From positions 1 through 64,000 of the forward strand of contig JANYDW010000070.1 in the NCBI GenBank assembly GCA_025363455.1: a DNA stretch of 64,000 nt, written 5' to 3'. Shown here in pieces: positions 38,869 to 42,903 of the stretch. Origin of the DNA: Oleiharenicola sp. GTDB lineage: Bacteria; Verrucomicrobiota; Verrucomicrobiia; Opitutales; Opitutaceae. Position 1 is the stretch's first letter. Each line of letters opens with the position of its first letter. The notes below the pieces were generated by a model. That model had not been told where the DNA came from. It searched no databases and saw only the letters and a list, made by a program, of their open reading frames with translations. Position numbers and translations under genes: made by a program.

Positions 38869-41800
38869 TCAATAATCCAGATATGGCGCCAACCATTTCT
38901 CTGCGCCTGCGACTGGCATTTCCATCCGCTGGGCAAGATCTTCGATTTGATCTACGGCCAGTTTACCAACGGCGAAATACTTGGAATCCGGATGATTGAA
39001 ATACCAGCCGCTCACGCTTGACGCAGGATACATCGCATAATTTTCGGTCAGGGTGATTCCAGTGCGGGCCGAGGCGTCCAGTAATTCAAACAGGGGCGGC
39101 TTGGCCTGGTGGTCCGGGCAGGCGGGGTAGCCGGGAGCGGGGCGGATGCCGCGGTATTTCTCCCGAATGATGTCCTTCATCTCCAGGTTCTCGGTCTTGC
39201 CGTAGCCGGAGAACTCCCGGGCCTTCTTGTGCATCAGCTCGGCAAGGGCTTCGGCGAGGCGGTCGCCCAAGGCCTGCGCGAGGATGGCGTTGAAGTCGTC
39301 GTGCTTGACGCGGAATTCCGCGGCGAATTCCTCCACGCCGTGACCGGCGGTGACGGCGAAGCCGCCGAGGTAGTCGATGCGGCCCGAATTTTTCGGGGCA
39401 ATGAAGTCCGCGAGGCAGTGGTTGAACTGGTCGGCTGGCTTTTCGTTTTGCTGGCGCAGGAAGTGGAAGGTCTTGAGGACTTTCGAAGATGTAGGCTTGG
39501 GCCCGTTCGCTTCGCTCAGGGTGACGTCCGTGGGGTTGTAAACATCAACGCTGTCGCCGACGCTGTTGGCCGGCCAAAAACCGATGACGGCTTTGGCGGT
39601 GTAGCGCTTTTCGTCGATGATGCGTTTCAGCATTGCTCGCGCCTCGGCGTAGAGCTTGGTGGCTTCTTCGCCCACGACGGGATCTTTCAGGATGTCGGGG
39701 AAGCGGCCGTGGAGTTCCCAGGTCGAGAAGAAAGGGGACCAATCAATGAAATCGGAGATTTCATTGAGGGAAAGGGGTAGGGCGTGACCGCTGGGCGCGC
39801 CGTTCGGGTTTTGATCGTCTGCTTTGGTTCGCGGCGGGCCCAGCGGTCCCGCCCTACCTGTTGAAAACACCTTCGTGCCGAGGAATTCGGGCTTGGGGAT
39901 GTCGACGGTGGCCCAGTCGAACTTCGGGGCGCGGGCGCGGGCGTCGGCGAGGGAGAGGAGCTTGCGGGCGCCTTTTCTGTCCGCGAATTCCACGCGGGAT
40001 TTTTCCTGCTTGGCGCGGGTGTCGGCGACGAACTTGGGCTTGTTCTCCGGGCTGAGGAGCTGCGAGACGACGCCGATGACGCGCGAGGCGTCGAGGACGT
40101 GGACGACGGGCTCATCGTAATGGGGTGCGATCTTGACAGCGGTGTGCGCGGCGGAGGTGGTCGCCCCGCCGATGAGGAGCGGGAGCTTGGAGCCGAGGCG
40201 CCGCATTTCCTTGGCGTTGTGGACCATCTCGTCGAGCGAGGGCGTGATGAGGCCGGAGAGGCCGATGATGTCGGCGCCCTTTTCCACGGCGGCGGCATAA
40301 ATTTTCTCGAACGACACCATGACGCCGAGGTCAAAGACCTCATAGTTGTTACAAGCGAGGACGACGCCAACGATGTTCTTGCCGATGTCGTGCACGTCGC
40401 CCTTGACGGTGGCCATGACGATCCGGCCCTGGGCGCGGGCGATGCCGCCGGAGGCGATAAGCTCGGCCTTTTCCTTTTCCATGAACGGTTGGAGGTAAGC
40501 GACGGCCTTCTTCATGACGCGGGCGGACTTCACCACCTGCGGAAGGAACATCTTGCCCGCGCCGAAAAGATCGCCGACGACGCGCATGCCGTCCATCAAC
40601 GGCCCTTCGATGATGAGGAGCGGCTTGCCGTATTTCAGACGGGCTTCCTCGGTGTCGGTGTCGATGAAGGCGTCGATGCCTTTGACGAGTGCGTGGCTGA
40701 GACGCTCTTCGATGGTGCCCTTGCGCCAGGCTTGTTCGGTGGCGGGATCAGAAGCGGCCCGCAGGGACGCGGGCCCTCCAGCTTCGGCTTTGAGCTTTTC
40801 GCCGAGCATGACAAGCCGCTCAGTCGCCTCGGGCCGGCGATTCAGCAAGACGTCCTCGACGTGTTCGAGGAGTACCTTATCCACCTCCTCGTAGACCTCG
40901 AGCATTGACGGGTTGACGATGGCCATGTCGAGGCCGGCCGTGATGGCGTGGTAAAGAAAGGCCGAATGCATCGCCTCGCGGACGACGTTGTTGCCGCGGA
41001 AGGCGAAGGAGACATTGGACAGGCCACCGCTGACCTTGGCGTGCGGGAGATGGGCTTTGATCCAGCGCGTGGCCTCAATGAAATCCACGGCATAGTTGGC
41101 GTGCTCGTCGATGCCGGTACCGACGGTGAGGATGTTGGGATCGAAGATGATGTCCTCGGGCGGGAAGCCGGCGACGTCCACGAGCAGGCGGTAGGCGCGC
41201 GTGCAGATGCGGATCTTCTCGGCGAGCGTGGCGGCCTGGCCGTTCTCGTCGAAGGCCATGACGACGACGGCGGCGCCGTAGCGGAGGATGGTGCGCGCCT
41301 GCTCGAGGAACTTCGCCTCGCCCTCCTTGAGGGAGATGGAGTTGACGATGCCCTTGCCCTGAAGGCATTTTAGTCCGGCTTCGATGACCTCCCACTTGGA
41401 GGAGTCGACCATGAAAGGAACCTTGGCGATCTCGGGCTCGGAGCCGATGAGCTGCAGGAAGCGTGTCATGGCCGCGACTCCATCGATGAGGCCGTCGTCC
41501 ATGCAGATGTCGATGACGTTGGCGCCGTTGTCGACCTGTTGGCGGGCGACGGAGACGGCCTCCTCGTAATTGCCGGCCTTGACGAGCTTGGCGAACTTGG
41601 GCGAGCCGGCGACGTTGGTGCGCTCGCCGATCATCAGAAATGCCCCGATTTGCTGCGTGAACGGCAACGAGCCGGACAGTTGCAACGGGAGCGGAGCCGG
41701 GAAAAGAGGAGGCTGAGAGCGGAGAGCTGAGGGCTGAGAGTCAGAAGGCTGGATTGCCGCGTCGCCTGCGGCTCCTCGCAATGACAGGTCGGGGCGGAGG

Positions 41801-42903
41801 ATCGTCAGCGAGCGCGCGGGCTTGGGAGCGACGGCCTGGGCGATCGCAGCGATGTGTTCGGGCGTGTTGCCGCAGCAGCCGCCCACGATGTTGGCGAGGC
41901 CGCTCGAGGTGAACTCGCCCATGTAGCGCGCCATGTCGGCGGGCACGAGGTCGAAGCCGGTCGGCGAAAGTGCGTTGGGCAGACCGGCGTTGGGATAGCA
42001 GGAAATGAAGGTGTCGGCCTTGCCACTCAGTTCCTCAAGAAACGGCCGCATCAGGTCCGGGCCGATCGAGCAGTTGAGGCCGACCGAGAACGGCTTCACA
42101 TGGCGCACGGCGTTCCAGAACGCGCCGACGGTTTGCGCGGAGATCATGGTTTCGCCTCCGCGGCCGACCGCCGCCGAGATCATGACGGGCAGGTGGATTT
42201 TGTCCTCGGCAAAGATCTCACCGAGGGCCACCAGGGCGGCCTTGGCGTTCAAGGAGTCGAAGATCGTCTCGACGAGCAACAGATCGGACCCGCCGGCGAT
42301 GAGCGAGCGGATCTGGCGACGGTAGTCGGCCTTGACTTGATCGAAGGTGATGACGCGGAAGCCGGCGTCGTCCGCGTCGGGTGAGTTGGAGAGCGAGACG
42401 GTCAACGGCCCGATGGCGCCGGCGACGTAGCGGCGGCGCCCGGTGGCGTTGGCGATGCGGTCGGCCCATTCTCGGCATTGGCGCGCGGAGATGTAATTGA
42501 TGTCATGGGCGAGTTCCTGCAGAAACTTGTTCTCAATGACCTGCGCGTAGAACGCGGGGTCCTTGCGGCCGCCCTTTTCACGCGGATCCTCCAGAAAGAA
42601 CTCGCTCTGGCCGATGCTGGTGGCCGAAAAGGTGTTGGTCTCGATGATATCCGCGCCGGCCTCGAGGAAGCGCCGGTGGATGTCGCCGATCTCGGTGGGG
42701 CGGGTGAGGGAGTAGATGTCGCCGTTGTTCTTGAGGTCCTTCGGGGCGTCCTTGAACCGCTCGCCGCGCACGTCCTGTTCCGTCAGGTTGTAGGTGCCGA
42801 TGGTCGTGCCCATGGCGCCATCGAGGATGGCGATGCGCTCCCCCAGCGTCTGGCGGAGGTTGGTTTCAGCACTGGATGGAATGGTCTGGCGGGAGGATGA
42901 CAC
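38869..42903 (-). CDS. metH: cobalamin-dependent methionine synthase
   Basis: The 1344-residue protein is a full MetH. The homocysteine domain has a zinc-site Cys in GLNCSIG and the GGCCG pair near residue 340. The methyltetrahydrofolate domain starts [15 protein letters not shown] (about 425). The B12 domain has the cobalt-ligand motif DVHDIGKN with His838, and the C-terminal activation domain begins near [17 protein letters not shown]. The start codon is GTG (42903). It is about 120 residues longer than E. coli MetH (1227). Much of the excess is three repeat-derived insertions, one in each interdomain linker (about residues 373-398, 709-717 and 1016-1042). It transfers methyl from methyl-THF to homocysteine and makes the cell B12-dependent, fitting the B12 uptake gene upstream. 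Confidence 0.97.
39777..39856. repeat. REPIN inserted in-frame in metH (GTAG-GGCGGGACC family)
   Basis: GTAGGGCGTGACCGCTGGGC (39777-39796) and the inverted CAGCGGTCCCGCCCTAC (ending 39856) form an 80-bp unit with GTAG feet at both ends. On the minus strand it is translated as part of metH, giving [20 protein letters not shown] and the residues after it. It lies exactly between the B12-binding and activation domains. A single half of the same REP family is at 46401-46428. Confidence 0.85.
40754..40779. repeat. REP-like palindrome inside metH (GGAG foot)
   Basis: Read on the minus strand, GGAGGGCCCGCGTCCCTGCG continues GGCCGC, a 7-bp stem GGCCCGC/GCGGGCC on a GGAG foot. It is translated as [10 protein letters not shown] within the linker between the folate and B12-cap domains. 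The unit is short and in frame. Confidence 0.72.
41711..41787. repeat. composite repeat inside metH (CTGAGAG heptads plus GGATTGCCGCG element)
   Basis: GGCTGAGAGCGGAGAGCTGA and GGGCTGAGAGTCAG form a degenerate CTGAGAG array. It is followed by CTGGATTGCCGCGTCGCC up to CTCGCAATGACAG (41749-41787), an element known as a dispersed repeat in many bacterial genomes. In metH it encodes a Ser/Pro/Leu-rich segment ([19 protein letters not shown]) in the linker between homocysteine and folate domains. A related GAGGGCTGAGAGTTGAGAG occurs at 48778-48796 in the YcaQ-like gene. Confidence 0.75.

Follow-up and report, generated by a model that had tools for sequence, protein, structure and literature searches.

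In a stretch of 64,000 nucleotides (nt) from an Oleiharenicola sp. (Opitutaceae, Verrucomicrobiota; assembly GCA_025363455.1, contig JANYDW010000070.1, positions 1 to 64,000, hereafter the window), the gene metH encodes a cobalamin-dependent methionine synthase (MetH) that is considerably longer than its E. coli counterpart. This raises the question of where the additional residues came from and why they are found where they are. We consider it probable (roughly 0.8) that metH encodes a seemingly working methionine synthase whose disordered linkers, together with one hairpin loop, have grown through in-frame insertion of repeats native to the genome. These repeats comprise a pair of GTAG-tagged repetitive extragenic palindromic (REP) sequences, a GGAG-type REP and a CGTC-class REP, all three unrelated to each other, as well as a heptanucleotide array and a probable, degraded fourth repeat.

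The open reading frame (ORF) of metH is uninterrupted (Table 1), and its product carries the five Pfam domains S-methyl_trans, Pterin_bind, B12-binding_2, B12-binding and Met_synt_B12. Residues C278, C343 and C344, which we take to be the zinc ligands, were invariant across 35 aligned rows, and the DVHDIG motif was present. Over 1,176 domain codons compared with the nearest relative (L143), the ratio of nonsynonymous to synonymous substitution rates (dN/dS) was ~0.12 (dN 0.063, dS 0.52); the MetH domains are under purifying selection, and the product looks like a working methionine synthase. MetH of E. coli has 1227 amino acids (aa), which the window protein exceeds by ~117 residues, close to the ~120 given by an earlier, sequence-only reading of this stretch. 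However, ~23 of these residues (aa 106-128) represent an older insertion that is common to 37 of 79 aligned MetHs, and the four filled slots amount to ~78 residues above the short family states.

Four named linkers are described for the full-length MetH structure, with linkers II and IV mobile and unmodelled and linker I zipping two rigid domains (PMC10567725, as excerpted). Allowing up to 3 mismatches, the arm pattern of the linker IV insert has 209 places across the window's genome (reversed-pattern control 3). Its consensus, GGTAGGGCGNGACCGCTGGGC followed by NCGCCG, showed every fixed base at 97-99% in 93 copies, with a stem recognized by inspection as GGCGNG and its complement. A GTAG tag on a short stem-loop, high copy number and the inverted dimer place this insert among the GTAG REPs. 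The linker II element, searched with a tolerance of 3 mismatches, had 76 places (control 0), on both strands and partly in inverted pairs, and as a multicopy short palindrome of alternating orientation it likewise qualifies as a REP; we rejected its assignment to the GTAG-tagged REPs because its tag position reads GGAG. In linker I, the palindromic core TCATTGCGAGGAGC was present at 64 places with at most 1 mismatch (control 2), and 23 copies gave the consensus TGTCATTGCGAGGAGC...CAATCCA. REPs of the CGTC class are defined by a CGTC or TGTC tag, a stem of 8-9 bp and a CCA tail (PMC3733652, as excerpted). The linker I element has the TGTC tag and the CCA tail and is, by these two features, a putative member of the class. 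About half of the linker I insert is made up of the heptanucleotide array.

A further insert was located in the activation domain, in a hairpin loop. The 22-nt core of this insert (39503-39524) is 3 mismatches away from TCATCCTGAGCGAAGCGAAGGA, a repeat type with 3 other places in the same genome and with 9, 10 and 14 places in the genomes G175, G071 and G037 (reversed-pattern control 0 in all 19 genomes), and the insert is probably a degraded copy of this type. Among relatives the loop was identical over these 22 nt in L157, diverged in L144 and of GCCCTGAGCCTGTCGAAGG-type in L143 and L098. The palindromes that the sequence-only reading had reported from three linkers were borne out as multicopy repeats, but with a 7-nt array for about half of one insert. 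Its statement that each linker and no domain had been entered does not hold, as four linkers are named, linker III is unextended, and the fourth insert lies in the activation loop; the MetH domains are therefore not free of inserts.

Structure predictions for two constructs (aa 1-735 and aa 640-1344), made from 35-row alignments, gave a mean predicted local distance difference test score (pLDDT, not a measure of flexibility) of 87.2 and 81.6, respectively, with the domains mostly at 80-97. Values below 50 were restricted in the first construct to aa 370-398 (linker I), aa 710-718 (linker II) and the chain ends, and in the second to linker II (aa 709-719) and to a domain truncated by the construct's boundary (aa 640-674). 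In linker IV and in the activation loop, the middle blocks averaged ~52. The inserts are predicted to be disordered and sit where insertion looks tolerated. An Rfam search of the metH region returned no structured RNA at the gathering threshold.

Table 1. Features of metH and its surroundings in window coordinates (last row: coordinates within locus L098). TRF, Tandem Repeats Finder.
Feature	Position	Strand	Remarks
metH, cobalamin-dependent methionine synthase	38869..42903	-	one intact ORF, 1344 aa, GTG start
Linker I (Hcy:Fol) insert, aa 371-405	41689..41793	-	34 aa over short family state; pLDDT <50 at 370-398
CGTC-class (TGTC...CCA) palindromic repeat in linker I insert	41749..41786	-	14-nt core multicopy in own genome
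Heptanucleotide array (CTCTCAG-like) in linker I insert	41708..41740	-	TRF period 7/14; lag-7 score 17/21
Linker II (Fol:Cap) insert, GGAG-type REP, translated GGPASLRA	40754..40779	-	multicopy in own genome
Linker III (Cap:Cob), unextended in window; zeta-like domain in L098, L193	40426..40470	-	15 aa, the short family state
Linker IV (Cob:Act) insert, inverted pair of GTAG-tagged REPs	39776..39858	-	27-nt arms, 93% complementary
Probable fourth insert, aa 1123-1134, hairpin loop of activation domain	39502..39537	-	12 aa over short family state
Heptanucleotide array upstream of metH	43232..43265	.	TRF period 7, 4.9 copies
Second heptanucleotide array upstream of metH	43293..43323	.	TRF period 7, 4.4 copies
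Zeta-like domain in metH of L098	about 8.4-9.5 kb

The inserts were then placed in time with a tree of 37 rows, built by a quick method from domain columns only (weak support at 5 of 36 inner branches). Closest to the window MetH was L143 from genome G113 (Shimodaira-Hasegawa-like approximate likelihood ratio test 96), 91.4% identical over the 1,176 domain codons. G113 had no place for the GTAG pattern at up to 2 mismatches, versus 129 in the window's genome; the CGTC-class core was likewise absent from it, and the GGAG pattern had 6 places. None of the window's GTAG, GGAG and CGTC-class repeats was found in the linkers of L143, which carry different 7-nt arrays in linkers I and IV and an unextended linker II. 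Linker I measures 51 aa in the window versus 38 aa in L143, and linker II 22 versus 19 aa. Because G113 lacks both patterns and its linkers are filled otherwise, the GTAG and CGTC-class inserts most likely arrived after the split from L143. The GGAG insert of linker II is also present in L145, with another version in L144 and L086, and may reflect either shared descent with a loss in L143 or a separate insertion. The GTAG pair of linker IV recurred at the same position in L098, which is no near relative, there with a CGTC-class copy between its arms; this recurrence may be due to separate insertion or transfer.

Reuse of the same slots was seen throughout the family. In an alignment of 79 non-redundant full-length or nearly full-length MetHs (88 minus 9 duplicates), three compared intervals spanned 54-92, 42-57 and 36-101 residues in the 24 rows of or beside the window's family. 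In the other 55 rows the ranges were 55-57, 37-42 and 34-36 residues, with exceptions in three rows (L068, L113 and L091) whose linker I reached 113, 92 and 79 residues. All insertions of at least 4 aa in 31 family MetHs were located in linkers I-IV, the activation loop or the N-terminus, as judged against alignment columns that half or more of the rows occupy, with majority insertions thus uncounted and with L062 and L070 included by their place in the tree. Changes between the extended and the unextended state on the domain-only tree numbered 8 each for linkers I and II, 7 for linker III, 2 for linker IV and 5 for the loop. The contents varied by species and included GTAGCCGGGGTC...GGCTACA palindromes, GGAG pairs, a GTAGGAGC...GCGAT palindrome, nested repeats and 7-nt arrays, and palindromes and heptamers of unlike sequence occupied the same slots in different species. 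As the same slots are filled by different repeats in relatives, they seem open to many kinds of in-frame inserts. Long, palindrome-rich linker I inserts were also observed in Hymenobacter piscis (L113) and in a metagenome-assembled genome labelled Proteobacteria (L068), and the insertion habit may therefore extend beyond the window's family.

Several more diverged family MetHs (L152, L154-L156, L159-L161, L163, L165 and L171) were each spread over two ORFs, the break falling at linker I. In L144 (minus strand, 5472-5799 in reverse-strand coordinates) and L072 (10976-11201), short ORFs downstream of metH matched 45-77 residues near its C-terminus and are possibly duplicated gene ends.

Tandem heptanucleotides turned out to be the commonest insert type detected by our tests. 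Among 67 extended slots in 32 rows (L067 and L184 representing one gene), 25 passed a test for 7-nt periodicity and 9 an ungapped palindrome test, each with windows from the same gene as reference (p<0.02), and 31 passed either; the ungapped test overlooked some established copies, among them the GGAG element of the window. An account of the slots by palindromes alone was rejected on these counts. With a fixed threshold, periodicity at lag 7 was detected in 18 of the 67 slots versus none of 1,340 control windows, and at its harmonic, lag 14, in 13 slots versus 1 control. No slot responded at lags 2, 4, 5, 10, 11 and 13 and a single one at lag 8, and lags 3, 9, 12 and 15 gave 2, 3, 2 and 3 slots versus 88, 15, 56 and 7 controls. 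TRF assigned period 7 or 14 to 31 of 99 arrays in 468 kb of the window's genome and to 22 of 62 in family loci. In the window itself, the period-7 arrays that TRF listed at a score of at least 40 were only the two upstream of metH and the one in linker I.

Repeats within genes were not restricted to metH. We surveyed 468,463 bases of the same genome, a non-random sample chosen around repeat sites, which contained 157 REP units. Of the 150 that could be evaluated, 18 passed a conservative test for lying inside a gene: three in metH, two in uvrA, two in hrpA and 11 in other genes (among them tatD, mnmA, an SNF2 helicase, galactokinase and mfd). Gene names were taken from Pfam matches and, for uvrA, hrpA, mnmA, mfd and nuoN, from their usual domain architectures. 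The metH gene is an extreme case of a general habit of in-frame REPs, which were observed in 13 other genes including uvrA (L247), hrpA (L027/L028), the SNF2 helicase (L231), mnmA (L224), tatD (L026) and a chromate transporter gene (L022). The uvrA ORF (L247:1-3369, minus strand) seemingly consists of two fused UvrA units, and close to where these join there are a GGAG REP and a 7-nt array.

The sequence-only reading had proposed strong selection on where coding repeats survive. This is clear within MetH but only suggested as a rule for the whole genome, with 13 of the 18 coding-like REPs outside the printed Pfam stretches and 5 inside (tatD, one of the two in hrpA, mnmA, a DUF3516 helicase and an amidohydrolase). 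One coding REP was positioned exactly between both helicase domains of the SNF2 protein, one between both chromate-transporter domains and another just before the second UvrA unit. With metH removed, 10 of 15 elements were outside Pfam stretches versus ~6 expected from the uncovered length, a hand calculation for which the coverage of UvrA was guessed. One of these 10, the first UvrA element, presumably lies between the ABC signature and Walker B and hence inside a folded domain. A preference of coding REPs for linkers is clear for MetH and only suggestive elsewhere in the genome.

How the repeats reached their slots can be outlined as follows. Most likely, REP-associated Y1 tyrosine transposases (RAYTs) produced the copies of the GTAG and GGAG REPs, and replication slippage extended the 7-nt arrays. 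Copies that struck a domain core, brought in a stop codon or shifted the frame would have been lost, whereas in-frame copies at five tolerant slots (linkers I-IV and the activation loop) would survive, presumably as neutral additions, and keep being replaced; ongoing replacement of this kind would explain why close relatives have different inserts in the same slots. The idea that mobile palindromes make flexible linkers fits in part. The inserts do come from multicopy repeats, at least two of them recent, yet existing linkers were lengthened, and much of the family material is 7-nt array.

As for the putative transposases, the window's genome contained 11 Y1_Tnp (RAYT-type) loci. At one of these (G000:C62:2619-2786, with a marginal Pfam score of 21.5-23.2) the match had a GTAG REP on either side, at 2450 (+) and 2945 (-), in inverted orientation, the only one of the 11 loci with a RAYT flanked by GTAG REPs. 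A GGAG REP was found within ~1 kb at 3 of the 11 loci. In the window, a RAYT-like Y1_Tnp match was detected at 62120-62302 on the plus strand (E 1.3e-5), and no GTAG or GGAG REP was found within ~1.5 kb of it at the thresholds used. A consensus of REP target sites showed upstream just one strongly conserved base, G (99%) for GTAG and T (82%) for GGAG elements.

Several observations weigh against the explanation favoured here. More than half of the extended slots (36 of 67) passed neither the palindrome nor the 7-nt test and are thus not identified as repeat-derived by this testing. Lag 6 was also raised (7 of 67 slots versus 17 of 1,340 controls). Arrays of period 7 or 14 were common in outgroup loci too (14 of 69) and are therefore not special to the family, for which it is their use in linkers that stands out. 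The full linker I palindrome, at up to 3 mismatches, had a single place in its own genome, namely the window, and the loop element only its 3 other, diverged places. REPs near RAYT genes were only modestly above expectation over 33 kb (3 GGAG loci versus 0.6 places expected; 1.6 expected for GTAG). Finally, the assembly is fragmented, with 83 contigs and 94.94% completeness.

Of the alternative explanations, the one that survives best, although we regard it as unlikely, is that the inserts were selected, i.e. that the cobalamin domain, as it moves, has its reach and timing adjusted by peptides of repeat origin and that linker length and composition are adaptive and not just tolerated. The mobile linkers left unmodelled in the excerpted structure are indeed II and IV, but some of the longest inserts are found in linker I, the zipper of two rigid domains, and both content and length of linkers differ between nearest relatives, as given above for the window and L143. 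Reading frames appeared biased: GGAGGGCC-type copies used the GGP frame in 11 of 11 coding copies, not all of them independent, and the Arg-rich open frame AQRSRPT was never used in 14 coding reverse GTAG arms of the window's genome (hand count including metH). Against this, the GGAGGGCTCAGCTCC-type partner copies beside GGAG elements use another frame (VEG), and purging of charged peptides alone can give a frame bias.

Far less probable is that long linkers are ancestral and only seem to contain insertions, having drifted towards a repeat-like composition. The linker IV extension requires just two changes on the tree, 36 of the 67 extended slots contain no repeat detected by our tests, and the loop element, with 22 nt that are the same in L142 and L157, may be an old feature common to both. 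Drift is difficult to reconcile with the window elements of linkers II and IV and the linker I core, which showed 0 mismatches to multicopy families, with the absence of threshold-level 7-nt periodicity from all 1,340 control windows of the same genes, and with short linker states in close relatives. For linkers I, II and IV of the window this explanation is contradicted; it may hold for the loop and for linkers of individual relatives. We likewise found neither the same linkers without the repeats nor their conservation across phyla, either of which would have spoken against insertion; linkers differ between close relatives, and unextended homologues are ordinary. An artefact of metagenome assembly or binning, conceivable as assemblies break at repeats and the genome is in 83 contigs, is hardly credible given that metH lies inside a 104-kb contig with its frame open over four inserts, that the pattern recurs in single-contig genomes (e.g. 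G113, G071) and that the named isolate Rubritalea marina has an in-frame insert as well.

The insertion of repeats into MetH is accompanied in relatives by the insertion of whole domains. The extra domain in MetH of L098 was matched in 7 of 200 family genomes searched, and in 4 of these 7 the zeta-like kinase domain was in frame within MetH, either in linker III (L098, L193) or in the activation loop (L293, L294). Pfam Zeta_toxin was detected with E values of 1.9e-9 (L098), 1.1e-9 (L293) and 1.3e-8 (L294), and the L193 insert was assigned by sequence (58% to the L098 insert). That the domain occupies two different places in MetH speaks for no fewer than two separate insertion events, and we guess that the insert might be a regulatory P-loop domain. 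Relatives of it were observed in an LPD38 polyvalent protein (L295) and as a stand-alone protein (L297), and no match was found among plasmid records. The genome of L098 further contains a second metH fragment (L192, G189:C324:1-2500, from aa 783 onward) without the zeta-like insert, which may be a paralogue or a strain mixture. In R. marina DSM 17716, metH (L130, about 9313-10020) has an in-frame insert in its activation domain. This insert is ~233 residues long, matches Y1_Tnp (E 3e-9) and is flanked by two GGCG(A/G)CGGTT...AACCG hairpins in inverted orientation. This hairpin pattern had one further place in the R. marina genome and is therefore not high-copy there. We tentatively suggest that linkers I-IV and the activation hairpin of MetH might be general landing sites for whole domains as well as for repeats, the zeta-like domain having entered twice (linker III and activation loop, in three family genera) and a transposase having been captured in R. 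marina; insertion of repeats might then be a first step that enables new, regulating domains.

Repeats of this kind have known parallels. Among the matches listed in the open-access literature, supplementary tables excluded, no paper on repeat inserts in MetH linkers or on a MetH-zeta fusion was found, nor did a precedent come up for heptanucleotide arrays translated within linkers. Di Nocera et al. (2013) described intragenic GTAG and CGTC REPs in frame within known genes, with most intragenic GTAG repeats in Opitutus terrae, including double insertions in both of its uvrA genes, and with different REPs at roughly one site in two Xanthomonas recB genes (PMC3733652, as excerpted). The excerpted passages propose, but do not test, that intragenic REPs sit in flexible linkers or loops (PMC3733652). 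The window shares with these REPs both the in-frame palindromes in genes and different REPs at one site, and the main text of that paper (the table in Additional file 3 excluded) contains neither 'methionine synthase' nor 'heptanucleotide'. Rickettsia palindromic elements are palindromes in frame in unrelated genes, as told in excerpts of PMC3733652. They are similar in behaviour only, a likeness by description, as they belong to other organisms, whereas here several unrelated families are combined in one protein. With the RAYT/REP systems (REPtrons, REPINs) the window's genome has in common a Y1 transposase gene with flanking inverted GTAG REPs, and in R. marina, unlike in these systems, the transposase domain itself is in frame inside metH. 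The short tandemly repeated repetitive sequences of cyanobacteria are 7-nt tandem repeats. Heptanucleotide repeats of Nostoc, Calothrix and Xanthomonas are 7-nt tandem units spread through the genome (PMC4692102, as excerpted). Genome-wide 7-nt tandem units were also found in the window's genome; the likeness is by unit length, and here, in contrast, the arrays are translated in linkers with units varying by species. Intragenic REPs and the guess about linkers or loops have been known since 2013, and MetH is an unusually clear natural experiment within this known phenomenon. It makes the 2013 suggestion testable by supplying one enzyme, of known structure and measurable activity, in dozens of natural insertion variants, and it shows different repeats at identical positions in two genomes that are 91% identical in their MetH domains.

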